Assembly: GCF_051622035.1 (NCBI RefSeq)
Contig: NC_135366.1
Location: forward strand, 5,053,001-5,117,000
Source: Arctopsyche grandis
Taxonomy: Eukaryota; Arthropoda; Insecta; Trichoptera; Hydropsychidae
DNA: 64,000 nucleotides
Reading direction: 5' to 3'
Program-made: the position numbers and the translations under genes
Part shown: positions 7,121 through 58,319 of the stretch, one piece after another
How the letters are laid out: each line of letters opens with the position of its first letter
Numbering within the stretch: position 1 is the first letter of the stretch
The notes under the pieces: model-generated
Databases searched by the model: none
The model's input: only the letters and a program-made list of their open reading frames with translations
What the model was told of the DNA's origin: nothing

Positions 7121-7189
7121 TTACAAAACGAAAAAAATCAAAGTCATTTAAACTCCCAAATGTCCACGAATGTAGAAGCCGAAATCGTG

Positions 7190-7566
7190 GACAACAACAA
7201 AAAAGGCTATTAAACTCTGAAGATTCCAAACGTCTCTCAATTAAAATTAAATTAAAAAACCAAATTTACGACATTCTAATTGACTCTGGTTCAGATTTAT
7301 CAATATTAAAAAACAATAATTTTAATCTTGAAGCAGAAAAACATTTATTAAAAGGATTTTCAAAATCAGGAGATCCCATTACAACATTAGGAACAATCGA
7401 CTTGAAGTTAAAATTTAACGATAATAATATAATTCATACCTTTCATATCGTCGATGCTAGAGAAATAGATTTAGACTACGACGGAATTTTAGGATTAGAT
7501 TTTTTGGGAAAAAATAAAACAATTTTAGATTTCGACACCTTTGAATTGAAACTAAAACCAAAGTAA
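7190..7566 (+). pseudogene. Gypsy aspartic protease (fossil)
   Basis: Retropepsin-like domain with the active-site triad seen as LIDSGSDLS and the downstream GILGLDFL motif typical of the family's second half. Part of the broken gypsy element. Confidence 0.8.
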
Positions 7567-7970
7567 AAGAGACTACTAATAATAAGGTTATAGATCGCGA
7601 AATTAATGATGTTAAAGTAAATAATCACGTATTCACTTTAAAACCGCGCAGCGAAACTATATTGCGGTTAGATGTAGTAAACCCTGAGATTAACGAAGGA
7701 TTAGTAGAGATCGAAACAGGAATAAACGGAGTGTATGTATCAAACTGCATATCCAAAGTAGACAAAAATAATCAAGTTATTTGTTCCATGTTAAACAATA
7801 ATAACGAAAGTATAGACAAACACCAAACTTCGGAACGGAACATCTAAACCACCAAGAACGACAAAGCCTCTTTGAAATTTGCGAACAATACAATTTTTTA
7901 TTTCATCTGGAAGGTGACATTTTAACAAAAACCAGTTCGGTCCACCACGAAATCGTCACGGCTTATAACT

Positions 7971-8112
7971 AGAGCCCGGAATCTGAAGGGGCTGTTTATT
8001 GTTAAAAGATTGTAAATGCATTGTTAAAGGTTTGCCGAACCTTTTTTACAAAGGATTTACAACAATGGAATAGTAGGCGGCACGTTTCCGGCCCCTTCAG
8101 ATTCCGACCTCT
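7971..8112. mobile_element. Small hairpin MITE inserted in gypsy pol
   Basis: A 142-bp element with inverted ends AGAGCCCGGAATCTGAAG and the matching complement (GAATCTGAAGGGGC shared). Its middle can fold again (TTGTAAATGCATTG ... GATTTACAA). Flanking bases suggest a short duplication, TA or ACT, so it could be of mariner or Harbinger type. A diverged copy with the same core lies at 36045-36170. Confidence 0.8.
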
Positions 8113-8196
8113 ACTAATAACATTCCTCCAATCCACAATAAAACTTACCGGTATCCCCATGTACATAAAGAAGAAGTTAATAAACAAATAAACAGT

Positions 8197-9587
8197 ATGC
8201 TCGAACAAGGAATAATTCGACCTTCATATTCACCTTGGTCTTCGCCCATTTGGGTAGTACCAAAAAAACCTGACTCTTCTGGGAAACCTAAATGGAGAAT
8301 AGTGATAGATTATCGCAACCATAATGACATCACCGTAGGTGATGCTTACCCCCTTCCGAATGTTGATGAAATACTAGATCAACTAGGTAATAGTCATTAC
8401 TTTTCAACCCTCGATCTCGCTAAATTTTTTTTTTTGATTTTTAAATGCTTTTTATTATTACGAAATTATGTTCACAATGGATTCGCTAATGGATTTCACC
8501 AAATCCCCATGAATGATAAAGATATCGCAAAAAAATCTTTTTCTACACCCACTGGACATTACGAATACGTCAGAATGCCTTTTGGACTGAAAAATGCCCC
8601 CGCCACTTTTCAGAGGCTCATGAACAATGTCCTTACTGGTGTTCAAGGACTATATTGCTCTGTATACCTCGACGATATAGTTATCTACTCCCGTACATTA
8701 GAAGATCATTTGTCCCGATTACGTATCATATTTGACAAACTTTCTCAACATAACCTTAAGATCCAACCCGACAAATGCGAATTCCTTCGTAAAGAAGTCG
8801 CGTATCTCGGACATGTAATCACGAAAGACGGTGTATCTCCTAATCCCGACAAAGTAAAAGCAGTAAAAGATTTCCCTACTCCCAAAAATCCAAAAAATAT
8901 CAAATCTTTTATCGGACTTGCCAGTTATTACAGGAAATGTATTGAAAATTTTAGTAAAGTCGTCAAACCACTTACCAAGCTTCTTAGGAAAAATGCTATA
9001 TTCGATTGGAAACCCGTTCAACAAGATGCATTTAATCTTTTAAAAGAAAAACTCACCACAGCTCCTCTTCTTCAATATCCTGATTTTTTCAAAGATTTCA
9101 TCCTTACTACGGATGCCTCGAATTACGCGATTGGTGCTATTTTAAGCCAAGGAGAAGTAGGTAAAGATCTCCCGATTTGTTACGCTTCCCGAACTTTGAA
9201 TCAAGCAGAAACCAATTATAGCGTTATAGAAAGGGAATTGCTGGCTATAGTTTGGTCAGTTAATCATTTCAGGCCATATTTATATGGACGAAAATTCCTA
9301 ATTCTTACGGATCATAGATCCCTAGGAAGTTTAGTCAAAACCAAAGATCCGGGATCAAGGTTATTACGATGGAGGCTCAAATTGATTATAAAATTGATTA
9401 TAAACCGGGAAAAACCAACTCTAACGCAGATTGTCTTTCAAGGATAAAAAAATCTACCTATGAAGACTTTCTTGATTCGGACTTCACTAAAGGTGATACC
9501 GAATTCAAAGAAATAGACGGTATTCTAGAAAAGCAAGAAGACAATATTGCTCTGTGTATCTCCACAGATTTTAAATTAAGGAATTGA
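8197..9587 (+). pseudogene. Gypsy reverse transcriptase and RNase H (fossil)
   Basis: The best preserved part of the element. It contains the PSYSPWSSP entry motif, the FSTLDLA block, the FGLKNAPATFQR motif, the YLDDIVIYS catalytic box, and the RNase H start TTDASNYAIGAILSQ followed by a TDHRSL-like block. The order and spacing are those of Ty3/gypsy pol. A short LINE tail has inserted within it. Confidence 0.9.
8424..8482 (-). mobile_element. Tiny 5'-truncated LINE tail inside RT
   Basis: A 59-bp insertion flanked by TCGCTAA on both sides (8417-8423 and 8483-8489), a target-site duplication. Read on the minus strand it ends with AAAAATCAAAAAAAAA, a poly-A-like tail. The same sequence occurs at 27594-27645, where the copy is longer. 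This is what severe 5' truncation during target-primed reverse transcription produces. Confidence 0.85.
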
Positions 9588-14591: not shown

Positions 14592-15449
14592 TTGATTTAC
14601 TGAATAAAAATTGAAAAATTGAAAACAAAAAAATAAAAACTAAATTTTGATTTGATTTTGTTTGTATGTACAATAATTTACCAAATTGTTTTAGAAGAAG
14701 ACGACGAAGCCTTATTTGTAACTCCAGAATCAGATGATAGCAGCTTGGAATCGGATTATTCCGATGATGAGGATGAAGAAATTAGTATGGAATATGATTT
14801 GGAAATGAATCCGGTTAACACAGATTTTTTCCAATGGAAATCAGATCCATTCATACCAAAACTTCACGAGTTCGTCGATGGTATCAATTCTGGCGTAAAA
14901 ACTGACATTCCAAGTGATGCACTTAAGCTATTTTTCAACACTGTAATCGAAGAAACAAATCGACAATTTAAATTTTCGACAAAAGATAAAACTACACTTA
15001 GTTGGCGTTTGCAGCAGTGGGTCGATACGGATGTCGACGAAATGTTTTTGTTTTTGGCCGTTATTATGCTATTGCCTCTAAATTCGCGCAATGCCATACA
15101 GGATAATTGGTCCACTGATGAATTACATATTGTATTCACCAATTTTCGGGAATACAATTTCCAGAAACCGCTTCCAAATGCTCCTACGAATGTTGCATTT
15201 CAACGACAACGAGTTGCAACCACCTGGCGATCGATTATATAAAATTCGACCAATATTAGATAAATTAAGCATAACATTTTCGGAACTGTTCTATCCTCAT
15301 CAAAAAATATGCATAGATGAAAGCTTGGTTTTATTCAAGGGGCGTTTAGTGTTCAAGCAATTCATACCGTCCAAAAGATCACGTTTTGGAATAAAACTAT
15401 TTGTGTTGTGTGATTGCAAAAGTGGATATGTGCTAAACATTATCATATC

Positions 15450-15886
15450 ATAGAGCCAGCAGCATAGCTCGGACGTTAAGCTTCTGCTTACCGTCAAGAA
15501 GGTGCCGGGTTCTATCCCTGAATGAAAATGAATTTTTCAGAGTATGCTGTTGGTCAGACCTGGATTTGTGACTCCAGGTTGTTCGTTTCCTATCAGAGTT
15601 TGCCAATTTTCTCTGATTTCATTGTTGAAACGGTTCCCGGAAAAAAAAAATTGGCTAAAAATCCTTCCTACCTACTATGTCACCACTATTTGAAATTTGA
15701 TGGATGTACAATAAGAATTTATGTACAATTCATAGATGTCTCGTTAATTTGCGAGTTTTTTCAGTGTCTCGCAATTCAACGAATTATAATAAAAAATGCT
15801 GCATTTGTATTTGTAATTGGCCAGGAAGGCGCATTGGGATTTTCCTGTAAGGCCTTCCTGGTATATATGTAAAAATAAAATAAAAA
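15450..15886 (+). mobile_element. tRNA-headed SINE in piggyBac gene
   Basis: Starts with a tRNA-like head: AGCCAGCAGCATAGCTCGG with an A-box-like stretch and GGTGCCGGGTTCTATCCC as B box, the two internal RNA polymerase III signals. A body follows (CAGAGTTTGCCAATTTTC, TTGAAACGGTTCC). The 3' end carries the hairpin CCAGGAAGGC ... GCCTTCCTGG and an A-rich tail. The body is shared with the SINE at 23844-24161. The hairpin is shared with LINE fragments elsewhere in the window, which suggests those LINEs supply its reverse transcriptase. Confidence 0.85.
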
Positions 15887-16003
15887 TATACACTGGTGCA
15901 TCTACTGAGATTACACGCATTGAAGAGTTGGAGAGCACGGTCACTACGCTTCTTGAGCCCTATTTAGATCTTGGGCACACATTATATGTGGACAATTATT
16001 ATA

Positions 16004-16810
16004 GGGGACGCGACAATTGGTGCAAGTCCAAAAGGTTCAACGACAAAATGTACCCGAAAATTAGTGCACTGACAAAATGTACCCGCGACAAAATGTTCAC
16101 GCGACAAAATGTTCATGCGACAAAATGTCCACGGAAATAATGTTCAAGCGACAAAATGTTCAAAAATCCTAAATTTTCCTATTTTAATGGAAAAGGTAAC
16201 TTTTTATTGTATTATACATATTTATCGATGTATATGGTACTTTTTATCATATAGATCGCGGATGTTATTAAATTAGTATAAATTACAGGTGTTCTCAACC
16301 GCACCAACATATTCTTATTTAAATTTAACAATTAGGTTTTAAGCGAATGTCATTGTGACTCATTGAATATCATTTTAAGATGTCATTGAATTAGTTTAAA
16401 TGTTAGGGGTTCTTATTTAAATTGAAAAAAAAATACTTTCTAAGCGTATGAACTGCAGATTACATTGAATTAGTTTATATGGCAGGGCTTCTCAACCGTC
16501 TCCAAAATTTTCTTTATTTAAAATGAATAATTTACTTTTTATCGTATACATCGCGGGCGTTATTTAATTAGTATAAATGACAGGTGTTCTCAACCGTATC
16601 CAATATTTACTTATTTAAATTGAAAAATAATAATAATTTAAAATTAACTTTAAAAATGTAGGATTTTTGAACATTTTGTCGCTTGAACATTATTTCCGTG
16701 GTCATTTTGTCGCGTGAACATTTTGTCGCGGGTACATTTTGTCAGTGCACTAATTTTCGGGTACATTTTGTCGTTGAACCTTTTGGACTTGCACCAATTG
16801 TCGTGTAACC
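16004..16810. mobile_element. MULE-type MITE, family 1 (807 bp)
   Basis: Ends GGGGACGCGACAATTGG and, inverted at the right, GGTTACACGACAATTGG. The long inverted arms are built from iterated CGACAAAATGTTC/TACCC motifs. Flanks are ATTATTATA (15995-16003) and ATTATTGTA (16811-16819), a 9-bp duplication with one change. The tips and arms match the autonomous-looking MULE at 42535-48503, so this is an internally deleted or MITE relative. It lies inside the piggyBac gene at the VDNYY codons. Confidence 0.9.
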
Positions 16811-17570
16811 ATTATTGTACAAGCCCAATACTATTTCAAACCCTCCATAATAAAAAAAAACTAATGCCTGTGGCACAGTTCGAAAAAATAGAAAGGGACT
16901 ACCCAAATTAGAAAAAACATTGAAAAAAGAAGAATCTGTGGCATATCATAACGATACCATGATGGTACAGACATGGCATGATAAAAGAGACGTATCGATG
17001 CTCACTACGATGCATGTCGCAGATTTCCAACAAACTGGAAAAATAAACCATAAAACAAAAGAGCCCATTACTAAACCCTGCAGTGCTATAGATTACAGTA
17101 AAAATATGGGAAAAGTCGACAGGAGTGATATGATGATATCGTCCATGAATAATACACGAAAAACGATGAAGTGGTACACTAAATTATTTTTTCATCTTCT
17201 CGATTTGTCCCTTTTCAACGCCCATATAATTTACAAAAAAAGAAAATCAGGAAACAATAAAAGTCTAAAACAATTTCAATTAGAAGTTATAAGGCAACTG
17301 ATATCTAAACACAAAAAAGAAAAAACCCAGAAGAGTAAACGCCCTCGGACCAGTTCATCGCCAGTTTCTCGGTTAGATGGAAACCATTGCTTTGGCGAAT
17401 TTTCACCAGCTAAAAATCGCTCAAATTCGTGGAAGAGATGTCATGTTTGCTCAACAACTAGTATTGGTGAAAAAAAGCGCAAAGAAACAAAATACTTCTG
17501 CAAACAATGTGATGTTCCGTTGTGTGTTGTACCCTGTTATGAATCGTACCATACTAATCAGATATATTGA

Positions 17571-21599: not shown

Positions 21600-23187
21600 A
21601 TGGAGTGCAGGCTTTGTCTTTGTACTGCTCCAGCGGAGTACTTCGTCTCCATCCATAACAATCCTCATCCATTAGTGCAGCACATTTGGACTTGCTGTCA
21701 TCTGCAGGTCAGCTACAGTCGGGCTTACGGTTACTTTTAATCATTTGCTATATATCATTAGTCCAGTCTCATGAACTTTTTCATTTGCAGATTAAGAAAT
21801 GTGACGGGTTGCCCGATACAATATGTCTTTCGTGTGACAGTAATCTAAAGTTGTTCAGCAATTTCCGAAATGTCTGTCTTCAAAGTGACGAAATGTCGAA
21901 ACAGAGGTCTAATAAGTGTTTGGATATCAAGCTGGAAGAAGTTTTACTGGAGGATTTAAAATGGGAGGATGAGTCGGGTGTTAATTCACCAGCAAATGAT
22001 AATGACAATACAATCAAAATGATACCGAGTGCCGTAGACGTAGAGAGTCGTGATTCTGCACAAAACATCGATTCAATTGAAAATACTAGTTCGAAAGTAA
22101 AACGATTTCTTGTCCCAATATATGTATGAATATTATTATACATTAAAATTGATATGGTATTCGTTTATGTTTTCAGATGCGCGGAGGAAACGTTACTTCA
22201 TGTGATTATAAATCTGAAGCAATTAATGATAATGAACCACATAAAACTATTTCCTGTGATATGTCTACCCAGGTCTCGTTTGAATGTGACATTTGTTTAA
22301 AATCATTTCCTCTTAGATGGAAGCTTGTGAGACATTTAAAATCTCATAGTGTAGTAAAGCCATACATATGTGGCATTTGTTCAAAATCATTCGCTTCTAA
22401 GTGTAACCTTTTGAGACATTATAAAGGGCATTCTGGAGAAAAGTGGTACAAATGTGATATTTGTTTAAAGTCATTTGCTACAAAATCGAACCTTGTTGAT
22501 CACGTTGAATCTCACAACGAGGTAAAACAGCACAAATGTGACATCTGCTCTAAATCACTTTCTACAAAACGTAGTCTTATGAGACATTTGAGGTGCCATA
22601 CTGAAGAAAGGCCGTTCAAATGTGATATGTGTTTAAAATCATTCGTTGCAAAATATTGTCTTGTTGAACATATCAAAACTCACACTATGGTCGAACAATA
22701 CAAATGTAACATTTGTTCAAGGGGGTTTGTCAGAAATGTTAACCTTAAGAGACATTTGAGATCGCATTCTGGAGAAAAACCGTACAAATGTAATACTTGC
22801 TCGAAAGTATTTTCTCAAAAATGTAACCTCGCCGTTCATGAAAGATCTCACACTGGGGAAAAGCCTCATAAATGTGACATTTGTTTAAATTCATTTACTC
22901 ATAAGTATACACTCGCTATACATAAAAGATCTCACGGTGAAGAAAAACCACACAAATGTAACATTTGTATAAAATCATTTGGTACGAAATATGGCTTAAT
23001 GAAACATGTAAGATGTCACACTGAGCTGTATAAATGTGACATTTGTCTAAAATCATTTAATTCAAAATATTCCCTAACATCGCATGAAAGAACTCATACG
23101 GGGGAAAAACCGTACAAATGTGATATTTGTTTGAAATCATTTTCACAAAAGTCTCATCTCGTGAGACATTCGAAATCTCACATCTGA
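21600..23187 (+). CDS. ZAD-C2H2 zinc-finger protein, gene B (11 fingers)
   Basis: A complete three-exon gene, 483 residues, likely a nuclear sequence-specific transcription factor. Exon 1 (21600-21707) and exon 2 (21791-22123) build an N-terminal ZAD, a zinc-bound dimerisation head: MECRLCLCTAP, then GLPDTICLSCDSNLKLF with the second Cys pair. An acidic, serine-rich linker follows. Exon 3 (22177-23187) encodes eleven C2H2 fingers, mostly with short TGEKP-like or variant linkers. Introns are 83 and 53 bp, with GT/AG ends and phase 0. An in-frame ATG three bases upstream (21597) is an alternative start. AATAAA lies at 23213. No stop or frameshift is visible. The upstream DNA is crowded with MITE and LTR insertions. 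The DNA target is unknown. Confidence 0.9.
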
Positions 23188-29707: not shown

Positions 29708-31592
29708 CTATAATATTACATTTCTCTGTTTGTGTGGCTTTATCCTAGTATGAGTAACCATATGTGATTTAAGATCATGTTTCGTAATAAATGCTTTTGA
29801 ACAAATGTCACATTTGTGTGGTTTTATCCCCTTATGAATAGCCGTATGTGAATTGAGGTCTGATTTTCTAAGGAATGACTTTGAACAAATGTCACATTTG
29901 TGTGACTTTACCCCAGTATGAATCACAATGTGTGAATTGAGGTCTGCTTTTCTAAGGAATGAATTTGAACAAATGTCACATTTGTATGGCCTTACCCCAG
30001 TATGAATACCCATATGTGCACTGAGTTCACGTTTTGTAATGAATGATTTAAAGCAAACTTCACATTTGTGTGGCTTTAACCCAGTATGAATACCCATATG
30101 CGTTACAAGACTTTGTTTCCTAGTAAATGTTTTTGAACAAATGACACATTTGTGTTGATTCACTCCAGTATGAATTCCCATATGTTCACTGAGTTGCCAT
30201 TTTCTACCGAATGATTTAAAACAAACGTCACATTTGTGTGGCTTCCCAGTATGAATAACCATATGTGTACTGAGACTTTGTTTCGTAGTATATGTTTTTG
30301 AACAAATGTCACATTTGTGTTGATTCACTCCAGTATGAATACCCATATGTTCAAAAAGGTGCCTTTTTCTTCTGAATAATTTTAAACAAATTTCGCATTT
30401 GTGAGGCTTGACCCCACTATGAATACCCATATGAGTACTAAGACTGTGTTTCCTAGTAAATGTTTTTGAACAAATTTCACAATTGTGTTGATACACTCCA
30501 GTATGAATACCCATATGTACACTAAGTTCCGAATTTCTACTGAATAATTTTGAACAAATTTCGCATTTGTGAGGCTTGACCCCACTATGAATAACCATAT
30601 GTGCATTGAGTTCAAATTTTCTAAGGAATGATTTTAAACAAATGTCACATTTGTGTGTCTTTAACCCAGTATGAATCACTATATGTGAACTAAGACCTTG
30701 TTCCGTAGTAAATGATTTAGAACAAACGTCACATCTGTGTGGCTTTACCCCACTATGAACACTCATGTGTCTACTTAGATTGTGTTTCCTGTTAAAAGAC
30801 TTTGAACAAATGTCACACTCATACAGATTTCTTTGAGTATCCGAGATTTTCTGTGTCACACTATTGATTTTATGAGTAAACGAATTGTCTTGGAAATCTG
30901 TTTTATGGTCCAATTCAAAATGTGTAGAGCAACTCTTCACTAAAGGTTTTCGACATGATAATTCTTCGGCTATTATGTGTCTATTGTTATCTATTATTGC
31001 TGCCACATTATCACTCGAAGCAATTTTTCTTCCAGGGGTCTAAAAAAAAAACCGAACGTTATTCAATTAAACATGTGTATTTATAGTGTGATTAGGTGTC
31101 ATTTTACATGTGAATTTATATTTTCTATTAAATGAATGTTTCTCCGAGAATCGATCTAAAGAACTTGAATCCTATTTACTTACCTCGCCGTCGTCTGGTA
31201 AACTAGAAATTTTGGGTGAAAAATCAGCACCCAACTCATCTTCCAACAAAACTTCCTCCGGCTTGACTTTCAAATACTTGTCTAATTCCACCCTCGACGT
31301 TGTGTCATTCCGAAAACAAGCGTTTCGAAAGCTGTCGAACAATTCCAGATTGTTGGCACAAGAAAGACATATCACATCTGGCAGATGGTCACCTTTCTTA
31401 ACCTGCAAATGTGAAAGGTATTGACGATTGCGAGGAGTAGCGAATCAATAGCAATAGTTCAAGTGTAACGTGACTGACCCGCAGCTGACAGCAAGTCCAA
31501 ATGCGCTGCACCAAACGCGGTGGATGAGGGTCGTCGTGGATGGAGACGAAGGAGCCTGCTGGAGCAGAGCAGAGACAAAGTCTGCACTCCAT
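29708..31592 (-). CDS. ZAD-C2H2 zinc-finger protein, gene C (13 fingers)
   Basis: A complete three-exon gene on the minus strand, 554 residues. Exon 1 (31592-31479) encodes MECRLCLCSAPAGSFVS and ends CTGCGG then GTCAG. Exon 2 (31402-31184), after TTTGCAG, completes the ZAD with GDHLPDVICLSCANNLELF and an acidic linker, ending GAG then GTAAGT. Exon 3 (31039-29708), after TTTTTAG, has a short leader and thirteen C2H2 fingers with TGVKPHKC-type linkers. All junctions are phase 0. The linker before finger 8 is two residues short (HTGKPHKC), as in genes E and F. No damage seen. Likely a nuclear DNA-binding regulator; its target is unknown. Confidence 0.92.
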
Positions 31593-37362: not shown

Positions 37363-39544
37363 TTAACATTTCTCTGGCTTTACCTCAGTATGAGTAGCCA
37401 TATGTAAACTAAGATTACGTTTCGTAGTAAATGTTTTTGAGCAATTGTCACATTTGTGTGGTTTTAGCCCAATATGAATAAGCATGTGTCTTTTGAGGAC
37501 TGATTTTCCAAAGAATGATTTTAAACAAATGTCACATTTGTATGGCCTTACCCCAGTATGAATACCCATATGTTCACTGAGTTCACGTTTTCTATGGAAT
37601 GATTTGAAACAAATGTCACATTTGTGTAGCTTTACCCCAGTATGCTTATCCATGTGTATACTGAGTCCAGATTTTGAAGGAAATGATTTGAAACAAACGT
37701 CACATTTGTGTGGCTTTACCCCAGTATGAATAAGCATGTGTGAATTGAGGTGTGATTTTCTAACGAATGATTTAAAACAAACGTCACATTTGTGTGGCTT
37801 TAACCTAGTATGAATAAGCATGTGTGAGTTGAGGTGTGATTTTCTAAAGAATGATTTTGAACAAATGTCACATTTGTATGTCCTTACCCCAGTATGAATA
37901 CCCATATGTGCACTGAGTTCACATTTTCTAACGAATGATTTAAAGCAAACTTCACATTTGTGTGGCTTCCCAGTATGAATAATCATATGTGAACTAAGAC
38001 TATGTTTCGTAGTAAATGTTTTTGAACAAACGTCACATTTGTGTTGATTCACTCCAGTATGAATACCTATATGTTCACCAAGTCTGCAATTTCTACTAAA
38101 AGATTTTGAACAAATTTCGCATTTGTGCGGCTTGACCCCACTATGTATAACCATATGTACATTGAGTTGAGATTTTCTAAGAAATGATTTTAAACAAATG
38201 TCACATTTGTATGGCTTTAACCCAGTATGAATACCCTTATGTACATTGAGTTGAAATTTTGTAACGAATGATTTTAAACAAACGTCACATTTGTGTGGCT
38301 TTAACCCATTATGAATAAGCATGTGTAAATCGAGCTCTACTTTTCTAAGGAATGACTTTAAACAATTGTCACATTTGTATGGTTTTAGCCCCATATGAAT
38401 ACCCATATGTGAATTGAGATCTGATTTTCTAAGGAATGATTTTGAACAAATGTCACATTTGTGTGGTGTTAGCCCCTTATGAATACCCACATGTGAATTG
38501 AGGTCTGATTTCCTAAGGTATGATTTTGAACAAATGTCACATTTGTGTGGTTTTAGTTCATTATGACTACCCACATGTGAATTGAGCTCTGCTTTTCTAA
38601 GGAATGACTTTAAACAAATATCACATTTGTGTGACTTTACCCCAGTATGCCTATCCATGTGTTCACTGAGTCTAGATTTTGAAGGGAATGATTTGAAACA
38701 AACGTTACATTTGTGTGGCTTTACCCCAGTATGAACACTCATGTGTTCACTTAGTCTAGCTTTCCTGTTAAAAGATTTTGAACAAATGTCACAATAATGC
38801 AGTTTTCTTCGAGTATCAGAGTTTTTTGGTGTCACACTATTAATTTTATGGTCCAATTCAGAATGTGTAGAGCACATCTTATCTAAAGATTTTCTACACG
38901 GTAATTCTTCCGCTAGAATGTGTCCATTGTTATCTATTATTGCTGTCACATTATCACTCGAAGCAATTTTTCTTCCAGAAGTCTAAAAAATAAACCGAAC
39001 GTTATTCAATTAAACATGTGTACTGATAGTGTGATTAGATGTAATTTCCATGTGAATTTATGTTTTCGATTAAGTAAATGTTTTTTCAAGCATCGATCTA
39101 AGAACTTGAATCCTGTTTACTTACCTCAGCGTCGTCTGGTGAACTAGAAATGTCGGGTGAACAATCAGCACCTAACTCATCTTCCCATATCAAATCTTCC
39201 AGCAAAACTTCCTCTGGCTTGACATTCAAATACTTGTCTAATTTCACCCTCGACGATGTGTCATTCCGAAAACAAGCGTTTCGAAAGCTGTCGAACAATT
39301 CCAGATTATTGACACAAGAAAGGCATATCATATCTGGCAGATGGTCACCTTTCCTAACCTGCAAATGTGAAAGGTATTGACGATTGCGAGGAGTAGTGAA
39401 TTATCAATAGCAATGGTTCACGTGACTGACCCGCAGCTGACAGCAGGCCCAAATGCGTTGCACCAAACACGGTGGATGAGGGTCGTCATGGATGGAGACG
39501 AAGGAGCCTGCTGGAGCAGAGCAGAGACAAAGTCTGCACTCCAT
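37363..39544 (-). CDS. ZAD-C2H2 zinc-finger protein, gene E (17 fingers)
   Basis: A complete three-exon gene, 655 residues, the largest of the group. Exon 1 (39544-39431) encodes MECRLCLCSAPAGSFVS. Exon 2 (39358-39125) completes the ZAD and has an acidic linker that includes LEDLIWEDELGAD, a phrase missing from gene C. Exon 3 (38982-37363) encodes a leader and seventeen C2H2 fingers. GT/AG splice sites are in the same places as in gene C, and all junctions are phase 0. The short HTGKPHKC linker precedes finger 11. Several neighbouring fingers are near-copies (for example fingers 4 and 5, and 12 and 13), so the array has grown by internal duplication. No damage seen. Likely a nuclear regulator of unknown target. 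Confidence 0.93.
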
Positions 39545-42525: not shown

Positions 42526-42534
42526 CTCTCTGCT

Positions 42535-42652
42535 GGTTACACGACAATTGGTGCAAGTCCAAAATGTTCAACGACAAAATGTACCCGAAAATTAGTGCAC
42601 TGACAAAATGTACCCGCGACAAAATGTTCAAAAATGTTCAAAATGTTCAACC
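42535..42652. repeat. Left inverted arm of MULE
   Basis: Contains ACAAAATGTACCC twice, then GACAAAATGTTCAAAAATG and further short TGTTCAAAA repeats. The right arm is 48390-48503 and pairs with it almost base for base. Confidence 0.9.
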
Positions 42653-43344
42653 GTATCCAATATTTTCTTATTTAAATTGAAAAAAAAAAACTTTCTGAGC
42701 GTGTGAACTGCAGATTACATTGCATTAGTTTATATGGCAGGGCTTCTCAACCGTCTCCAAAATTTACTTTATTTCAAATGAATAATTTACTTTTTATCGT
42801 ACACATCGCGGGCGTTATTAAATTAGTATAAATGACAGGGGTTCCCAACCGTATCCAATATTTACGTATTTAAATTGAAAAAAAAAACTTTCCGAGCGTA
42901 TGAACTGCAGATTACATTGCATTAGTTTATATGGCAGGGCTTCTCAACCGTCTCCAAAATTTTCTTTATTTCAAATGAATAATTTACTTTTTATCGTACA
43001 CATCGCGGGCGTTATTAAATTAGTATAAATGACAGGGGTTCTCAACCGTATCCAATATTTATGTATTTAAATTGAAAAAAAAAACTTTCCGAGCGTATGA
43101 ACTCCAGATTACATTGCATTAGTTTATATGGCAGGGCTTCTCAACCGTCTCCAAAATTTACTTTATTTCAAATGAATAATTTACTTTTTATCGTACACAT
43201 CGCGGGCGTTATTAAATTAGTATAAATGTCAGGGGTTCTCAACCGTATCCAATATTTTCTTATTTAAATTGAAAAAAAAAACTTTCTGAGCGTATGAACT
43301 GCAGATTACATTGCATTAGTTTATATGGCAGGGCTTCTCAACCG
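42653..43344 (+). repeat. 197-bp tandem array inside MULE
   Basis: About 3.5 copies, starting GTATCCAATATTT at 42653, 42851, 43048 and 43245. Each unit has GAACTGCAGATTACATTGC, GGCAGGGCTTCTCAACCG and TCGTACACATCGCGGGCG. Copies differ by only a few bases. One inverted unit is found at 48010-48170, and single units are in the MITE at 16004-16810. Confidence 0.93.
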
Positions 43345-44313
43345 TAATATAAAATCTTATAATGAAAATAAATAAATAAAAGCCAAAATTACAAATCTTT
43401 TCTTCATATGAAATAAGTTGTATTCAGTTGAAAACAAAACAAAAATCATTTAAACATAATATGAGCATACAAAATAGATCATCATTTGACATGTATTTTT
43501 AAAATCATTTTTAAATTTATTACTTAATTTTGTAATAATATTTATTTTAATAAATAAACAATATTCAATTAAAATAATACATCATTAATTGTAAGATTAA
43601 AAGTGATCTGCTCTCAAATAATGGAATCATCATAGTTCGAACTGTTGAAATGCACATGTCATTAAATTTAAAACATTAAAACACAAAATTTATCAATTTT
43701 CAGATTAAAACAATAATTGTTAAATTAAAAATTTAAAATACCTAACATCAGTGACAAATTTAGTTATAATATAATTGCTTATCAACAGCTACCGCTGCAT
43801 AAAAATATTGATGTCATTTAAAAAATTTGAGTATATTATGACTTAATTTATACATTCTTAAATAATAAGAAATAAATAAGCAAAAAGTTGTGCATTTGAT
43901 GGAATATCGATAATAAGAGGAAGCTTTTATAAAAAAAAGATACAAAAAATGTACTAAAAGGAAATAAAAATATTGTATATAATATTAAAAAATCCATAAT
44001 TAGTAAGATTAAAAAATGGTATGACAGTATTTAAATAATGTAGATACATACATACATATGTACATTAAAAGGAATTTAATATTTTTCATATTAAATAAGT
44101 TTAGTTTAGTTTTAAAATACAAGGATTTAAAATTAATAACTAAATATAATATACATAAGTATGTGACTAGATATATAAACTAGAACCCTGTTCGCCCTTG
44201 ACTTGACTGCTGCGAGAAAAATATCCTGTGTACGCACCTGAAAATGAATGTTATATATTATTTTATATACAAAATTTTAACGAAATAATATTTTAGAATA
44301 AAAACTAACGTGT

Positions 44314-45777
44314 TTAAAAATTATACGATATTCCTCTTAGGTATGTCTCCAAACTTTGTCGATTAGCCCAATTGGCTGTGACGTTTTTTATCCTCTCTGC
44401 CAATTGTACGTATTTCGGCCGCTGTTGTCTTCCCATAACTCCGGAGTTTAGTTCTTCTACTAACTTCTCGGTCTCGGCTTGGAGACCTTGAAGGGCTTTC
44501 AAAAATTTCCAGAGGTTTGGAAATTGGGCTCCAATTGTATAGCCAACTTTCATATGGAAGCCTTCCACTTCGTTATCTGTTTTTCCATAATTATGTATTA
44601 TTCGGTCTCGAACATTCCATATGTCTATGGAAGCTACCCGAGGTTCACGCCTTACATTCGCTATGATTTTCCCAATATAATTTACCTCAAAATAAATGAG
44701 GAAATCATCGACCTTTTGTTGGATTTCTCGCTCTTGTTCCAATAGCCAAGGGTTGAGAATTTGGAGGAGTTCCTCCCAGCTTTCGACTACATTTTCTGGA
44801 GGAACGAATGCTAAAGCCAACACCATTTTAAATTTAATTGCATTTTCCTGATTATCATAAAATTCCGTTAATCCCAATTCCTGGATTTTTCTATAGATAC
44901 TTTGGGACAGATGGAAAAAGCAACCCGTTACTTGCGCATTTGGCCATTGGTTTTGAACGGCATTGATGGCTGCCCTCTCGAAATCCATCATTACCCTATT
45001 AGGTTCCCAATCTTGAATATACATTTTTAATTGACTAAAGAGTCTATTGTATGTGGTTCCACTTTTATCTGGAAGCAGACAAAATATTAAGGGAACCGCC
45101 TTCCCCGGCTTTTGGTCAGTGCCCTCCAGTCGCGTGCCATGTATAAAATATAGCTGCGTGAATAGTGGTGGAGCAGTTTTGAATGTACCGTCCATTAGTA
45201 TGCTCTGGCAACTTTTTAAAAATTCTAAATTCTTTCTCGTTGTGAACATTAAAATTCTTTCTTCAGAACCAGAGCCTGAATCCCAAAATAAAAATTGCTC
45301 CGGTGTAGTTGTGCTACCTGTTATTTGATACTCTGTAGGTACATCTATGTCGCTCCTTGTTATTGGCAGAGGAAGTGGTACTTGTGCTTTATTCCTCTGC
45401 CTTTGTACATTTCTCTTCAAATGATTTATCGAAGGCAATCTTGCCCTGGCTACATCAGTCGCTGCCATTAACGATCTTTGCACTATGCTAGTGGTGGTGC
45501 TGGCACCGATAGCGTTCGATGCCGCTTGCTGCATAAAGCCTTGAATTTGGCGTATCTCACGCCTTAGCCTATCGGGCAAGTGGCTGTGCTCCTTAGTTTG
45601 CCGAAACTCGCGTCTGTTAGATTTTGTGATTGCACGTCCATTGCATATTTTTCGGTTTTCGCAAACCCAATACTCCGTTTCAGTATCTATACCCGATCGA
45701 TGACGCGTGTAGCAGAATCCATCGCATATTAATAAAACTCCATTCTTTTGCGTCCTTTCAAATGTCATATCCTGCAT
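44314..45777 (-). CDS. MULE transposase with FLYWCH zinc finger
   Basis: A single open frame of 487 residues with no internal stop. Residues 10-66 form a FLYWCH-type zinc finger (YWVCENRKICNGRAIT, then a KEHSH pair), a DNA-binding module common in animal MULE transposases. Residues 185-300 carry the MULE core: ILMDGTFKTAP with D196, RVMMDFERAA with D265, then a CFFHL motif (C286, H289). The final acid is in the NEVEGFH motif (E405), so the DDE set and the C/H motif are all present. The enzyme would cut element ends and join them to a new site. The ATG at 45777 is directly preceded by TTTATACAG, so an upstream 5' exon is possible. It sits centrally between matched arms of the element. Confidence 0.92.
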   Translation of the reverse strand: MQDMTFERTQKNGVLLICDGFCYTRHRSGIDTETEYWVCENRKICNGRAITKSNRREFRQTKEHSHLPDRLRREIRQIQGFMQQAASNAIGASTTTSIVQRSLMAATDVARARLPSINHLKRNVQRQRNKAQVPLPLPITRSDIDVPTEYQITGSTTTPEQFLFWDSGSGSEERILMFTTRKNLEFLKSCQSILMDGTFKTAPPLFTQLYFIHGTRLEGTDQKPGKAVPLIFCLLPDKSGTTYNRLFSQLKMYIQDWEPNRVMMDFERAAINAVQNQWPNAQVTGCFFHLSQSIYRKIQELGLTEFYDNQENAIKFKMVLALAFVPPENVVESWEELLQILNPWLLEQEREIQQKVDDFLIYFEVNYIGKIIANVRREPRVASIDIWNVRDRIIHNYGKTDNEVEGFHMKVGYTIGAQFPNLWKFLKALQGLQAETEKLVEELNSGVMGRQQRPKYVQLAERIKNVTANWANRQSLETYLRGISYNF

Positions 45778-45779
45778 CT

Positions 45780-48000
45780 GTATAAAGAAATAAATAAATT
45801 ATAAATAATTTTACTAACTAGAGAAATTATAATATAATTATTATTTCACTTTAAGGCCGATCGAGCCCATTTTTGGCAAATATCGCGCGCGCCTACGAGT
45901 TGCGCTATTTTATTATTTTTTCCCTCGTAGATAATCTACAATAATATCCAAGATTTTTAACAAAATGAAAAATAGATATCCTTCTTATTGTTTTTTTTTT
46001 AGGTTTTAAAAATGAATCTATAATTGAAATAATGAACGCTAAACATAACTTAAATTTATAAGTTTGGCTTTAGTTAAATTAGGCTTTACTGTGAAGCTAT
46101 TTACGAGTTCGTCGATCTGTAACATCTCTCATAACAATAAAACAATAACAACAAAATATTTCTTAACAATAACAATAAAACTTGACTCTTTGTTGTTTTA
46201 ACCAACAGCTGCAATATTTCCGGGTAAGTTTAAGAAATAAATACTCATTTGAAACGACATATGCCATTCATAAATAAACAGACAAAGCTGTTTTTTGCGT
46301 AAAGGGCTGTAGTGCACACAATATTGACTGTGACTAATTACTACTTTTTATGTACGTACGTATCTTAGGGTTGCCATAATTGTCGAACCACCGAAGGGGA
46401 CTTCCCCCCCAAAAAAAAAAAACACTCATAGCTTTCATAGCTTTATACACTCGAAATTCATAGCTTTGTTATAAAAAATTGTGCAATCTTTTAAAACAAT
46501 GCATCTGTACCAAATCTAAAATCAAACAATATAGATTAATAGGCGATTCAATTTAATAAAACCAAATAGAACCTTACCTTAACATTTTAATTCATACGTT
46601 CTTCTCTCGCCTTTACTCTTCTTTGAATTGGGCGACTTCATGTTTTCGTTTTTTGGAGCAGCTCTTTTTCCCCTTTTATATAATTATATAGTTCAATGCA
46701 CGACATTTTATAATACATACACTTTTTTATAACACGCTTTTCACTGTGTCAATATAATGCGAATTGCGCTCATCTGTTCAGTGAGCTTTATGTAATTAAT
46801 GAGAACACACGTTCAACATAGGCATTTTGCGGTGGGATGGTGAACAAGTATTGTTAACTTGATAACCTTATTAGAACTTTATAATACCAGAGAAATTATA
46901 AATTTATTACATAGATATATGTATATTTTTCTATAATAAATGTGATCGAGCTTATCAACTGTGAATAGCTAAAAATTATTATTCTAATGCTACAAACCGA
47001 AGTTGAAGAGGACATTGAAGAGATTTCGAACCCACCATTTGCCTATTGTCCTAGGGTTTTACGCAAAGAAAAAAATGCATTCAATAGCCTCTAACATGAG
47101 GGTAGTAAAATTTTATAACCCATTTGTCTTTTTACATATTTTCGTCCATTTGTGTAGACAATTCATCTGTCAATCATAGAACTAATTTCAAAATATATTA
47201 TTGTTTTGCCATCTCTATTCAACGCGCGTGATTTTTTTTACATTTACATTTTAATTGCATTTTACATCAATCGTGTGTCTTTTACATGTCAAAATGAAAT
47301 TTTGTATGCAACTCTTACGCATAATAGTTAGTTGTAAATGATGCAATATTAATGTGAAACATAAAGGAGGTATGTAAAAATAATTTTAGCTGGGGATTAA
47401 GGAACCCGTTGCCCAAAAAAAAAAGGTTGACTATTGTAAATTTCTAATGTCTGCCTTTTTTACATACCTCCTTTTTTCTCCAATACAATGTCCGATTCAT
47501 ACATTTGTTTTTTGTTAAACAATAAGTAAAATCTCTCCATCATAAATCCTAATAGTCGTAATTCGAGACTTGATTGTAAAATAATACATTAAATTTATCT
47601 AAATTAATATTTGATATTCTTGCCTTATAATTGTATAATGAAATATTAAGTTTAAAAAAAACTTTCATTTTACATATAGCTTGCAAATGTACACTAGAAG
47701 ACTTATTTGCAGAAGAAATAAAATAATTGCATTTTTAAACAAAATTTTGGAAAAAAATTATGTGAATTTGATTTAGAGACGCCGTAAAGGTCACATTCAA
47801 TGTTAAAACTCGAAGTACACGTGACCGCTGGCTGGGAACTGTTTTATCAAAATAAAACGTGGCGATCAACGTTTATTTATTTATATATTATCTTAGCTAT
47901 CAAGCTAATTTTAAAATTACTTAACTCTAAAATTTATAATTATCTTATATGTACTGTCCCTCACAGAGGTCTTCGGTGTTAAACTAATTCAATGACATAC
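45780..48000. other. MULE interior, no second gene seen
   Basis: AT-rich. A stretch at 47340-47480 contains the phrase GGAGGTATGTAAAAA and, inverted, TTTTTTACATACCTCC about 100 bases on, a weak hairpin. No open frame of convincing composition. Confidence 0.5.
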
Positions 48001-48512
48001 GCTTAAAAACTAAATTATTCATTTGAAATAAAGTAAATTTTGGAGACGGTTGAGAAGCCCTGCCATATAAACTAATGCAATGTAATCTGCAGTTCATACG
48101 CTCGGAAAGTTTTTTTTTTCAATTTAAATACGTAAATATTGGATACGGTTGGGAACCCCTGTCATTTATACTAATTCAATGACATCTTAAAATGATATTC
48201 AATGAGTCACAATGACATTCGCTTAAAATGTAATTGTTCAATTTAAATAAGTATATGTTGGTACGGTTGAGAACACCTTTAATTTATAATAATTTAATAA
48301 CATCCGCGATCTATACGATAAAAAGTACCATATACATCGATAAATATAATACAATAAAAAGTTACTTTTGCCATTAAAATAGGATAATTTAGGATTTTTG
48401 AACATTTTGAACATTTTGTCGCGGGTACATTTTGTCAGTGCACTAATTTTCGGGTACATTTTGTCGTTGAACATTTTGGCCTTGCACCAATTGTCGCGTC
48501 CCCCTCTCTGCT

Positions 48513-49938: not shown

Positions 49939-52308
49939 TTAACATTTCTCTGGCTTTACCTCAGTATGAGTAGTACATGTTTTTGAGCAATTGTCACATT
50001 TGTGTGGTTTTAGCCCCTTATGAATACCCATATGTAAATTGAAGTCTGATTTTCTAAGGTATGTTTTTGAACAAGTGTCACATTTGTAGGGCTTTACCCG
50101 AATATGAGTAACCATATGTAAACTAACATTATGTTTCGTAGCAAATGTTTTTGAACAAATGTCACATTGGTGTGGCTTTAACCCAATATGAATAAGCATG
50201 TGTCTTTTGAGGACTGATTTTCCAAAGAATGATTTTAAACAAATGTCACATTTGTATGGCCTTACCCCAGTATGAATACCCATATGTTCACTGAGTTCAT
50301 GTTTTCTATGGAATGATTTGAAACAAATGTCACATTTGTGTGGCTTTACCCCAGAATGAATAAACATGTGTGAATTAAGGTGTGATTTTCTAAGGAATGA
50401 TTTTGAACAAATGTCACATTTGTGTGGTGCTAGCCCCTTATGAATACCCACATGTGAATTGAGGTCTGATTTTCTAACGAATGATTTTGAACAAATGTCG
50501 CATTTGTGTGGCTTTAACCCATTATGACTACCCACATGGGAATTGAGGTCTGATTTTCTAACGAATGATTTTGAACAAACGTCACATTTGTGTGGCTTCC
50601 CAGTATGAATAATCATATGTGAACTAAGACTATATTTCGTAGTAAATGTTTTTGAACAAACGTCACATTTGTGTTGTTTCACTCCAGTATGAATACGTAT
50701 ATGTTCACCAAGTCTCCAATTTCTAGTAAAAGATTTTGAACAAATTTCGCATTTGTGCGGCTTGACCCCAGTATGTATAACCATATGTTCATTGAGTTGA
50801 GATTTTCTAAGAAATGATTTTAAACAAATGTCACATTTGTATGGCTTTAACCCAGTATGAATACCCTTATGTAAAATGAGTTGAAATCTTGTAACGAATG
50901 ATTTTAAACAAACGTCACATTTGTGTGGTTTTAGCCCCTTATGAATAACCATATGTGAATTGAGATCTGATTTTCTAAGGAATGATTTTGAACAAATGTC
51001 ACATTTGTGTGACTTTACCCTAGTATGAATCAAAATGTGTGAATAGAGTTGTGATTTTCTAAGGAATGAATTTGAACAAATGTCACATTCGTATGGCCTT
51101 ACCCCAGTATGAATACCCATATGTACACTGAGTTGACGTTTTCTACCGAATGATTTAAAGCAAACTTCACATTTGTGTGGCTTTACCCCAGTATGAACAT
51201 TCATGTGTTCACTTAGTCTAGCTTTCCTGTTAAAAGATTTTGAACAAATGTCACAATAATGCAGTTTTCTTCGAGTATCACAGTTTTTTGGTGTCACACT
51301 ATTGATTTTATGGTCCACTTCAGAATGTGTAGAGCACATCTTATCTGAAGCTTTTCTACACGGTAATTCTTCCGCTAGAATGTGTCTATTGTTATCTATT
51401 ATTGCTGTCACATTATCACTGGAAGCAATTTTTCTTCCAGAAGTCTAAAATATAAACCGAACGTTATTCAATTAAACATGAGTACTGATAGTGTGATTAG
51501 ATGTAATTTTACATGTGCATTTATGTTTTCGATTAAGTAGATGTTTTTTTAAGAATCGATCTAAAGAACTTGAATCCTATTTACTAACCTCGACGTCGTC
51601 TGGTGAATTAGAAATGTTGGGTGAACAATCGGCACCTAACTCATCTTCCCATATCAAATCTTCCAGCCAAACTTCCTCTGGCTTGACTTTCAAATTATTT
51701 ATTATTGCTGCCTTATTATCTCTTGAAGTAATTTTTCTTCCAGGGTTCTAAAAAATGAACCGAACGTTATTCAATTAAACATCTGTATTTAGTGTGATTA
51801 GATGTCATTTTACATGTGAATTTATATTATCGAATAAGTGGATGTTTCGCTAATAATCGATCTAAAGAACTTAAATCATACCTCGCCATGGTCTGGTGAA
51901 CTAGAAATATTGGGTGGGCAATCAGCACCCAACTCATCTTCCCATATTAAATCTTTCAGCAAAACTTCCTCTGGCTTGATTTTCAAATACTTGTCTAATT
52001 CCACCCTCGACGTTGTGTCATTCCGAAAACAAGCCTTTCGAAAGCTGTCGAACAATTCCAGATTGTTGACACAAGAAAGGCATATCATATCTGGCAGATG
52101 GTCTCCTTTCCTAACCTGCAAATGTGAAAGGTATTGACGACTACGAGGAGTAGCGAATTTACAATAGCAATGGTTCAAGTTTAACGTGACTGACCCGCAG
52201 CTGACAGCACGTCCAAATGCGTTGCACCAAACGCGTTGGATGAGGGTCGTCATGGATGGAGACGAAGGACTCTGCTGGAGCAGAGCAGAGGCAAAGTCTG
52301 CACTCCAT
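49939..52308 (-). CDS. ZAD-C2H2 zinc-finger protein, gene F (15 fingers, fusion gene)
   Basis: Exon 1 (52308-52195) encodes MECRLCLCSAPAESFVS. Exon 2 (52115-51882) completes the ZAD and acidic linker. The finger exon (51444-49939) has a leader and fifteen full C2H2 fingers, plus a sixteenth that is cut short (HKCDNCSKTCTTH) before the same TEVKPEKC tail as gene E. The protein is 617 residues, or 670 if the extra in-frame exon at 51589-51747 is used. Splice sites match the other genes, except that exon 2 ends GAG then GTATGA. Short HTGKPHKC linker before finger 9. No stop inside. Because the ZAD exons and the finger exon are separated by a chimeric exon, this gene looks like a fusion of two tandem ancestors. 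Likely a nuclear DNA-binding regulator. Confidence 0.88.
51589..51747 (-). other. Chimeric cassette exon in gene F
   Basis: 159 bp, 53 codons, open and phase 0 on both sides, after a TTTTTTAG acceptor and before GAG then GTTAGT. Its first 20 or so codons (NPGRKITSRDNKAAIINN) match the start of the finger exon. The rest (LKVKPEEVWLEDLIWEDE onward) matches the end of ZAD exon 2. Both flanking introns are copies of the same intron 2. It may be spliced in, giving a repeated linker, or skipped. Confidence 0.85.
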
Positions 52309-53399
52309 CGCTTCTCTTGAGGGAGAAGCACAAACTCCCGGAGAGTGGATAGTGGACAATGGAGGCCTAGATGTGGGGTTTCCAGATTTCGCGTGTCATA
52401 TTTAGGGTTGCCAACCATAATTTCACCTGGAAAATCCAGGCATTTGTACGATGGCAAGAAAAGACCAACTTACTGAAATCATTCATTAAGTTGGAGTCGG
52501 AGTCGGTAAATTTTAATCTGACTCCACAGCCCCGATTTCACTAGTCTGTATTTTTGGTGTTTACATTTTTGGTCTTTGTTTAAATATGACGGGTTAGTAT
52601 TTACGAGTATATTATACGGTTAATCATAGGCGGATTCAAGGGGAGTGACATGGGTGCTATTGCGCCCCCCTTGGGACGAATTTAATTTCATATATATTGT
52701 AAATTTTTCATATTTAAATATATATTATATATATCGGATTTATATTTTTATAAATATGTATTAAGTTCCATTTATTTTAAACGTACACTGTTGCACGAGT
52801 TTTCTACCTACATGTAAGTCGTCGACCATCGATATTTAGCAATAACTGGAAGAAATTGAGCGGGTTGAGCGAGCTCGGTGCGGACGTGCGTTTGTTTGTT
52901 GTCCCGATAAGTATGTAGAATTTTGTGTTAAATTGGAGCTAAAGAGGAGGTGCTGGGATGAGTATTTAGCTCTTCTGGCGCCTCGCAAGTTAGTACATAT
53001 TCAGAATCATTACCTATGCTTGATTTCATATATTTTTTAAATGGAATTTAAATTTATAATATTTTCATATTTACATAATTACTCACATAATTTCGATCAC
53101 ATTTCTTTTGATAATATATTATTATTAACGTCGATTGATTTATTAATGAAAGTATTGATAATATTTTACGTTGAATTATTTCATATTTAATATTGAGTGT
53201 TGAATGGTTTATATTTCAATGTTGAATTATTTCATAATTGATTATTTAATATTGAGTGTGAATTTTATTTAATGTTGATAATTTAATATATTGGATACTT
53301 GTACTCAACGTTAACGTTATTGTTTGGTACTAATTTCATAAATATTATGATTGTGAATAAACTGTCAATATATGTAAATATATCATAAATGGAAACACA
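52309..53399. other. Upstream of gene F and spacer
   Basis: 52370-52620 resembles the upstream region of gene C (GGTTGGCAACCCTAAAT and a GTTGGAGTCGGAGTCGG / CTGACTCCACAGC block). From 52620 to 53399 no gene is seen; 53130-53290 has repeated TTGAATTATTTCATA phrases. Confidence 0.5.
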
Positions 53400-57170: not shown

Positions 57171-57589
57171 AATGTGACCCAATACAATGTATATGGGATC
57201 GGTCATTTTGCATTTTCAGAACGACACGTCGCACCAACCGAGTCGTTCGCAAGTCGAGCGGTGCGACCCAGCCCTAAATCATTAAATGGGGTGAATGCGC
57301 AACGACCGGAGAAATGCACTCCGCGCAATAACTTTCGCCAACTTTCCGACAAGCAATGAGCATCCCATCCTGCCCAAAGAATTGCTGCACTCCTACAAAG
57401 TGATTAACTTTTCAACAAGCAATCTCACAACTCGTGGGCCATTATTATATCGGAAGTTGGCGTCAATGGAAAGTAACGTTCGCACTTGGACACCTTCAGG
57501 TTGGTAGCCCGAGTGTCAGTCGCCCCGGCTGTCATGTGCCGGTGAGACGGGCGACAGCGGTAGCGAGTGACGATCTGAAGTGACAGGTG
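57171..57589 (+). promoter_or_regulatory. Upstream region of USP30-like gene
   Basis: Single-copy-looking sequence that becomes GC-rich towards the ATG (57500-57589). No TATA box at a sensible distance is obvious. It probably holds the promoter and 5' untranslated region. The hAT element ends only 420 bp before the ATG. Confidence 0.4.
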
Positions 57590-57863
57590 ATGATGGAGAG
57601 CGGCGAGCGAGTGCTGGTGGCCGCGGGGCTGGCCGCGGCCGTAGTCGTCGGCGCGTTCGTCCTGTGGAGGCCCGTGGGGGGGGCGCGCGCTCGCAGGGGC
57701 AGAGTCGCCGGCCTGCAGAATCTGGGACGCACTTGTTTCCTGAACACACTGCTGCAAGCGTTAGCCGCAAGCCCGCGCTTTTCCACATGGCTGAAGCAGC
57801 GCGCCACTCAAGGACCCACCCAAGCCACCACCATGACCACCACTCTATCCACAGTCATTGAAG
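57590..57863 (+). CDS. USP30: USP30-like deubiquitinase, exon 1
   Basis: First coding exon (ATG 57590 or 57593) of a ubiquitin-specific protease. Residues 8-26 (VLVAAGLAAAVVVGAFVLW) form a membrane anchor. A basic stretch follows (RPVGGARARRGR), as in USP30 of the outer mitochondrial membrane. The Cys box NLGRTCFLNTLLQAL contains the catalytic cysteine. USP30 removes ubiquitin from mitochondrial proteins and opposes PINK1/Parkin mitophagy; this role is carried over from the family. The exon ends GAAG then GTCACA in phase 1 and joins the exon at 63148 across a 5.3-kb intron. It is strikingly GC-rich compared with its surroundings. Confidence 0.85.
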
Positions 57864-58319
57864 GTCACAATCATAATATAACACATACATACAGGGCCGC
57901 CGAGAGGGGAGGGAGGGGGAGACCGGAGTAAAGTTCCAAGGCCTGGACTTCTCTAGGGACCCCGTGTCGAAAATCATACCTATTAATCATAACCTTTCTT
58001 ATTCAGTTATTTAAAAAAATAACAACCGACATATAGGTATTTTTCCGATATATTTTTCGCATATTAAAAATATATCTATAAGACATTTTTTTCAAATTTT
58101 TTATAGGGACTGGATTTATTTTTCTCAGGGCTCGGGATTCCTCTCGGCGGCCTGCATACATACATATATACAAATCTTGATGATATATTTTATTGTATTT
58201 TTTTACATAATTTATCAAACTATACTCTTATCAATTGACATATCATTAATTGCACTAACTTTAATATATAGTCATTGAAGTATAATGTATAGAATAGTCA
58301 TTCCTAACAAAAGTATCGC

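Follow-up and report, generated by a model that had tools for sequence, protein, structure and literature searches.

We analysed 64,000 nucleotides of the genome of the trichopteran insect Arctopsyche grandis (contig NC_135366.1, positions 5,053,001 to 5,117,000 of the forward strand), a stretch that we call the window and that is the scope of the motif counts given below, taken on both strands where stated. The window holds a transposable element of 5,969 bp (copy 1, 42535..48503, no strand assigned) with inverted arms made of repeated motifs and a gene for a transposase of the Mutator-like element (MULE) type, together with a short relative (copy 2, 16004..16810). The borders of copy 1 were set by its arms and by the target-site duplication that flanks it. 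As a preliminary description of this DNA had claimed, the duplication is exact: the 9-bp sequence CTCTCTGCT lies at 42526..42534 on the left and again at 48504..48512 on the right. On the forward strand it occurs twice, both times exactly at these borders, and no third occurrence was found on either strand of the window.

Inverted-repeat and motif searches placed an outer arm at each end of copy 1, at 42542..42646 (plus strand) on the left and, inverted, at 48394..48496 (minus strand) on the right. In both, a core CGACAATTGGTGCAAG is followed by CAAAATG motifs that point inward, five per arm within the first ~110 bases. The two arms agree at 91 of 95 terminal positions; the mismatches are at positions 3, 4, 7 and 24, and three of these four fall within the outermost 7 bases. 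The gapless inverted pair covers 106 nt (42539-42644 with 48394-48499, 93%). Matched motif arms of ~100 bp had been described before, and this stands, with a correction to the motif: ACAAAATG, as it had been written, is found three times in each arm of copy 1, and CAAAATG five times. Across the four arms of the two copies CAAAATG occurs 5, 5, 6 and 5 times, always facing inward, and these 21 occurrences are part of a total of 38 in the window (both strands). The core CGACAATTGGTGCAAG is exact at the four element ends only, so that the two copies have terminal inverted repeats in common, as expected of MULEs; the next-best sites in the window, nine in number, have four mismatches each, and four of them are within the arms. 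When the 16-mer of the tip was searched in viral contigs, none of the 12 loci found carried the arm motif GACAAAATGTACCCG, and we took these matches as chance.

Inside the left outer arm, Tandem Repeats Finder (TRF) delimited an array at 42647..43345 (plus strand; 3.5 units of period 197, 96% matches), and a half-unit matrix resolved each unit into two diverged halves of ~98 bp that are 64-69% alike. The preliminary description had placed such an array beside one arm. The array is there, but it is not confined to that arm, since an inverted 197-bp unit lies at the other end (48004..48183, minus strand; 180 nt, 98% complementary to 42814-42993), and farther out, between this unit and the right arm, the half-unit matrix and an inverted match revealed one or more diverged half-units (48184..48340, minus strand). 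The 197-bp units are thus present at both ends of copy 1, in unequal number. The diverged right half-unit is older than the copy at 48004-48183. The half-unit that starts at 48270 resembles the copy 2 half-unit at 16295 (93%) more closely than the seven left half-units (72-76%), and the inverted match at 48262-48337 covers 76 nt at 83-84%. Since 42539-42993 pairs with 48499-48004 at 78% when gaps are allowed, the inverted arm measures ~0.5 kb. Long inverted arms of tandem motifs whose copy number varies are the hallmark of a foldback element.

One pair of half-units stood out in this comparison. The left half-unit at 42845-42943 and the right half-unit that starts at 48152 are identical over 99 bp and carry the variant CCAACCG, absent from the six other left half-units; the pair shares 95-97% with the remaining three left half-units of its type. 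The simplest reading of this identity suggests recent copying between the two ends. Note that two stretches were left out of the half-unit comparison: the one at 43338, beyond the array (50-60%), and the one at 16590 in copy 2 (53-63%), of which the first ~44 bases only belong to the unit. As a side observation, CAGGGGTTCTCAA is exact at two places only, 43033 and 43230, both of them half-unit junctions of the array. The array sequence GACAGGGGTTCTCAACCG / CAGGGGTTCTCAA presumably resembles the ends of hAT transposons; the resemblance is unproven, and a captured hAT end may perhaps have given rise to the array.

The transposase gene lies on the minus strand (44314..45777). An open reading frame (ORF) scan revealed 487 codons without a stop, and the longest stop-to-stop stretch in copy 1 measures 494 codons, compared to at most 155 in 200 single-base shuffles. 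In Pfam the protein matched MULE (PF10551) over residues 193-292 (E 1.1e-13; 51.9 bits, cut-off 27.6) and FLYWCH (PF04500) over residues 6-66 (E 7.7e-10, above the curated cut-off), while its three remaining rows (ISL3, ZSWIM and spectrin) fell under the cut-off. The frame of 487 residues, the N-terminal FLYWCH domain and the residues D196, D265, C286, H289 and E405 are all as first described; D196, D265, E405 and the CxxH pair C286/H289 are as expected of the DDE transposase domain of MULEs, and W387 stands with them. The best match in PDB was the FLYWCH domain 2rpr_A (0.00038), the other four of the five rows being weak and unrelated by name, and NCBIfam gave three weak matches far below the cut-off (IS1249, ISL3 and IS256). 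The FLYWCH finger follows a C2H2 pattern, and Cys39, Cys45, His64 and His66 may form it here.

The spacing of the key residues resembles that of Muta1, a yeast-active element of Aedes aegypti (PMC5225508; this and the other papers cited are drawn on in excerpt). The intervals D196-D265-H289-W387-E405 are 69, 24, 98 and 18 residues, compared to 69, 24, 94 and 18 between D214, D283, H307, W401 and E419 of Muta1. Thus, five of the six residues essential in Muta1 are matched in order, with three of four intervals identical. Upstream of the frame, motif inspection pointed to a candidate 5' intron (45778..46577, minus strand) with an AAG/GTAAGG donor and the acceptor TTCTTTATACAG directly before the ATG; a donor-like AAGGTAAGG is found at 46580. 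A candidate TATA box, TATATAAA (46675..46682, minus strand; motif match), precedes that donor by ~100 bases. The first exon predicted from these signals would be short and probably untranslated.

A search for a further copy with the same tips had been set beforehand as a test of the proposed element. In the window, to which this search was confined, comparison of the element with its surroundings revealed copy 2, an 807-bp non-autonomous element (16004..16810, no strand assigned) inverted relative to copy 1. It consists of both outer arms and some inner units, with no match to the transposase gene, and is flanked by ATTATTATA (15995..16003) and ATTATTGTA (16811..16819), which agree at 8 of 9 positions. 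When its flanks were joined minus one duplication, they gave an uninterrupted LYVDNYYTSPILFQ, and the frame reads ...TLYVDNYYTSPILFQT... across the join. Each side holds an ORF with a match to Pfam DDE_Tnp_1_7 (15091-15453, 8.5e-30; 16920-17570, 1.7e-14), and a third ORF (14652-15242) matches it below the cut-off. We take DDE_Tnp_1_7 to be a piggyBac-type transposase domain and the VDNYYTS motif at the joined flanks to be piggyBac-type as well. Because the joined flanks restore LYVDNYYTSPILFQ and DDE_Tnp_1_7 ORFs lie on both sides, copy 2 looks like a true insertion. It interrupts the piggyBac-type gene (14652-17570), and therefore the MULE family would have been mobile after that gene inserted. 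The gene is broken elsewhere too, the longest open stretch around the join being 92 residues.

Copy 2 also bears on whether copy 1 could be unrelated repeats brought together by chance, or an artefact of genome assembly. In favour of this, the window is rich in transposon-like ORFs. Against this, two copies with the same tips stand at different sites, each with its 9-bp duplication, and the sequence joins cleanly across copy 2. We regard this explanation as having a negligible probability.

Taken together, our results indicate with high confidence that copy 1 is a structurally complete foldback MULE of the animal Phantom/Muta type, probably an autonomous cut-and-paste element, accompanied by an internally deleted non-autonomous relative. 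The identity is carried by two insertions at different sites with the same tips and with 9-bp duplications (exact in copy 1, 8/9 in copy 2), a length within the 8-10 bp of MULEs. The preliminary description, which had proposed a MULE with arms of foldback style and an open frame for a FLYWCH transposase, is borne out in this, and the second copy has the same tips. An N-terminal FLYWCH domain before the MULE domain, as found here, is typical of the Phantom/Muta clade (group 20) but not decisive, because members of group 20 are listed with no finger, with FLYWCH or with SWIM (PMC6446971). The assignment to Phantom would follow from layout and residues rather than from a tree.

Another possibility could be that the ORF is a host gene domesticated from a MULE and kept for a host function, the arms being remnants. 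One paper, in which FLYWCH is named 15 times (PMC10027918), reports on transcription factors of transposon origin across animals. However, the exact terminal duplication, the long matched arms and the related copy imply that copy 1 moved as a transposon, and the DDE residues are kept. Domestication is accordingly a very improbable account of this locus, and the foldback MULE is the reading that we follow below.

The tips need a further correction: the terminal 7 bases of copy 1 read differently at its two ends. Outside the perfect inverted repeat, the left end carries GGTTACA (42535..42541, plus strand), identical to the right-end tip of copy 2, and the right end, read inward, carries GGGGACG (48497..48503, minus strand), identical to the left-end tip of copy 2. 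Each copy thus has one GGTTACA end and one GGGGACG end. Within the 95-bp arms, positions 3, 4 and 7 are end-specific in all four arms, whereas position 31 is copy-specific, both arms of copy 1 having T there and both of copy 2 having G; position 24 deviates solely in the GGGG end of copy 1. Extra motif units are common to both arms of copy 2, one of which has one fewer, and they have no counterpart in copy 1. The inner arms thus look homogenised within each copy, and the pattern fits an exchange of sequence between an element's two arms that stops short of the outermost bases, or that is selected against there.

That the ends differ in the same manner in both copies gives a small but testable hint of how left and right may be distinguished by such elements. 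We tentatively propose, although we consider it unlikely, that the ends are functionally different: exchange would homogenise the arms, and the outermost 7 bases would be kept since the transposase needs one GGTTACA and one GGGGACG end, for example to fix the end that is cut first. If true, the rule could extend to Phantom-type foldback MULEs in general, because most Tm1 elements of nematodes likewise combine two different tip motifs. In the two species described, one motif is found at each end in 24 of 39 and in 20 of 22 elements; the remaining elements lack that arrangement, and in one element the two tip motifs were alike and a duplication was missing (PMC3169594).

From these features a working model can be drawn. 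The minus-strand gene would yield the FLYWCH-MULE transposase, whose zinc finger, or else a host factor, would bind the inward CAAAATG array in each outer arm. The D/D/E core, aided by the conserved histidine of the CxxH pair and by the tryptophan, would cut at the tips, and the element would be joined to its target with a 9-base stagger, leaving the 9-bp duplications. The inner 197-bp units may expand, contract and swap sequence from arm to arm; the outermost bases would remain distinct and may label each end.

Several observations weigh against this interpretation or parts of it. Muta1 requires a sixth residue, E373, and no glutamate stands at its ungapped counterpart counted back from W387 (F359; the nearest is E364). 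The shared tips might equally reflect plain descent, not selection, in a sample of two copies. A single-sequence structure prediction of the transposase reached a predicted local distance difference test (pLDDT) score of 35 and was not used. No homologous protein was found in the protein collections searched, which hold viruses, phages and prokaryotes and no animals, so that the Phantom placement comes without a tree; the whole 487-residue protein gave two pattern matches and no relative in viral contigs, an 80-residue piece gave six and none there, prokaryote genomes gave 46 matches and no relative, and phages no match. In collections of this kind the absence of relatives tells little. As to age, the duplication of copy 2 has one mismatch, and comparable half-units of copies 2 and 1 are about 92-96% alike; because of these two facts the family would not be only very recent. 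Finally, just one of the two copies in the window has the gene.

A rival reading is a dead but well-preserved element, intact in structure, its transposase no longer made or silenced, and its family living on in the form of deletion derivatives. The window, with a single full copy beside a deletion derivative whose duplication is mismatched, is in line with this, and Tm1 has been reported as senescent with a single gene-bearing copy (PMC3169594). On the other hand, the 487-codon frame, the five key residues and the duplication are intact in copy 1, and the left and right half-units that are identical over 99 bp suggest a recent change. We judge a dead element to be somewhat short of an even chance, and place the chance that the foldback MULE family is still mobile at about one in two.

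The surroundings of the two copies contain other mobile elements and probable host genes. Two adjacent hAT-type transposase ORFs lie at 3364-5237 (minus strand), with Dimer_Tnp_hAT above and DUF4371 below the cut-off, and ORFs at 6188-9447 resemble by eye a Gypsy-type retrotransposon (gag, protease and reverse transcriptase). Four long C2H2 zinc-finger ORFs, alike by eye, are found at 22177-23187, 29708-31006, 37363-38949 and 49939-51411, the domain scan covering the last of them; together with a zf-AD domain near that ORF (51876-52457) they probably represent a local cluster of zf-AD/C2H2 transcription factor genes. Domains of the zf-AD type are characteristic of insects, in keeping with an insect host. 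In an ORF at 57587-57931, an N-terminal hydrophobic stretch is followed by part of a ubiquitin hydrolase (UCH) domain; the ORF is USP30-like by eye and possibly an exon of a host gene.

Next, we compared copy 1 with known systems. The preliminary description had considered the combination rarely described as a whole, which does not hold: Tm1 and Muta1 are already published as FLYWCH MULEs with composite foldback arms. Tm1-A, from the Meloidogyne root-knot nematodes (PMC3169594), encodes 496 residues with FLYWCH at 5-66 and MULE at 197-294, nearly the same positions as here, and has 9-bp duplications. As in copy 1, the Tm1 arms consist of short tandem motifs in variable number, asymmetric 7-bp tips stand outside the inverted repeat, and short non-autonomous relatives occur. 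However, Tm1 has a 13-15 bp motif (motif C, CGATTCAGTATCCGC) and the tips CGGTTAA/CCTACCC, in place of CAAAATG and GGTTACA/GGGGACG. Tm1-A measures 2,593 bp, has seven predicted exons and lacks the last FLYWCH histidine, whereas the coding frame of copy 1 is one open exon in a 6.0-kb element, and no 197-bp array figures in the available part of the Tm1 description. Copy 1 is thus built like Tm1 but is not Tm1. The letters GGTTA, common to one tip and to Tm1 motif A1, are too few to count.

Muta1 of Aedes aegypti (PMC5225508) is a type 2 foldback FLYWCH MULE of 3,198 bp that encodes 504 residues and moves in yeast; it has 145-bp arms with nine copies of a 12-bp repeat, 8-9 bp duplications and many non-autonomous derivatives. 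Alanine at D214, D283, H307, W401 or E419 abolished or nearly abolished its transposition. Copy 1 is likened to it by layout and by the order and nearly identical spacing of these D, D, H, W and E residues. They differ in the tip, which in Muta1 is a 10-bp imperfect palindromic motif, in the long internal array, of which the excerpted description of Muta1 makes no mention, and in E373, essential in Muta1 and called non-conserved by its authors, which has no clear counterpart in copy 1. In the same mosquito a FLYWCH finger is predicted in 13 of 14 MULE families, and subterminal tandem repeats are found in 10 of 12 families with long terminal inverted repeats.

Drosophila Foldback elements also have foldback arms built of motifs, and membership of the FB/NOF lineage proper was weighed as an alternative. 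In favour are the short-motif arms and the 9-bp duplications. For FB4, a non-autonomous element, duplications of 9-10 bp and arms of ~700 bp have been put forward as grounds for calling it MULE-like (PMC8277862). Nevertheless, the domain layout and protein size match those of Tm1 and Muta1, and no NOF-named family is among the five Pfam rows of the 487-residue protein; the separation from NOF is by description only. We therefore consider this lineage improbable. Of the comparison with Foldback/NOF first made for this locus, the foldback style stands, and the literature, as excerpted, places such elements closer to Phantom/Muta.

Dupeyron et al. 2019 (PMC6446971) delimit the Phantom clade, as their group 20, by means of a tree. 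The clade is reported from arthropods, other invertebrates and an ichnovirus, has 8-10 bp duplications and arms of 18-613 bp or none, and includes the Muta elements. Its aphid members have a minisatellite after the transposase ORF, and in copy 1 too the larger array is on the 3' side of the gene. Every part of copy 1 is known, and short-motif arms with a FLYWCH MULE are already in print. For the two-level arm, a short motif array plus ~200-bp units, together with a gene, we found no description in the excerpts of the Tm1, Muta1, Tetris and Phantom literature, and the aphid Phantom elements may have it.

Tetris/DAIBAM of Drosophila virilis (PMC4079207) has 8-10 bp duplications and foldback arms in which an outer domain is combined with ~220-bp tandem units. 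Like copy 1 it has a short relative sharing its ends; unlike copy 1, no transposase-bearing copy is reported for it in the excerpt. A complete gene-bearing foldback MULE and its short derivative, found here in one window, suggest a possible build for composite arms, in which a polarised array of short motifs lies outermost, a long tandem unit follows further in, and the two ends show signs of having exchanged sequence. It also makes testable whether asymmetric tips are a functional left/right code. In copy 1 the Tetris layout is found with a transposase gene inside.

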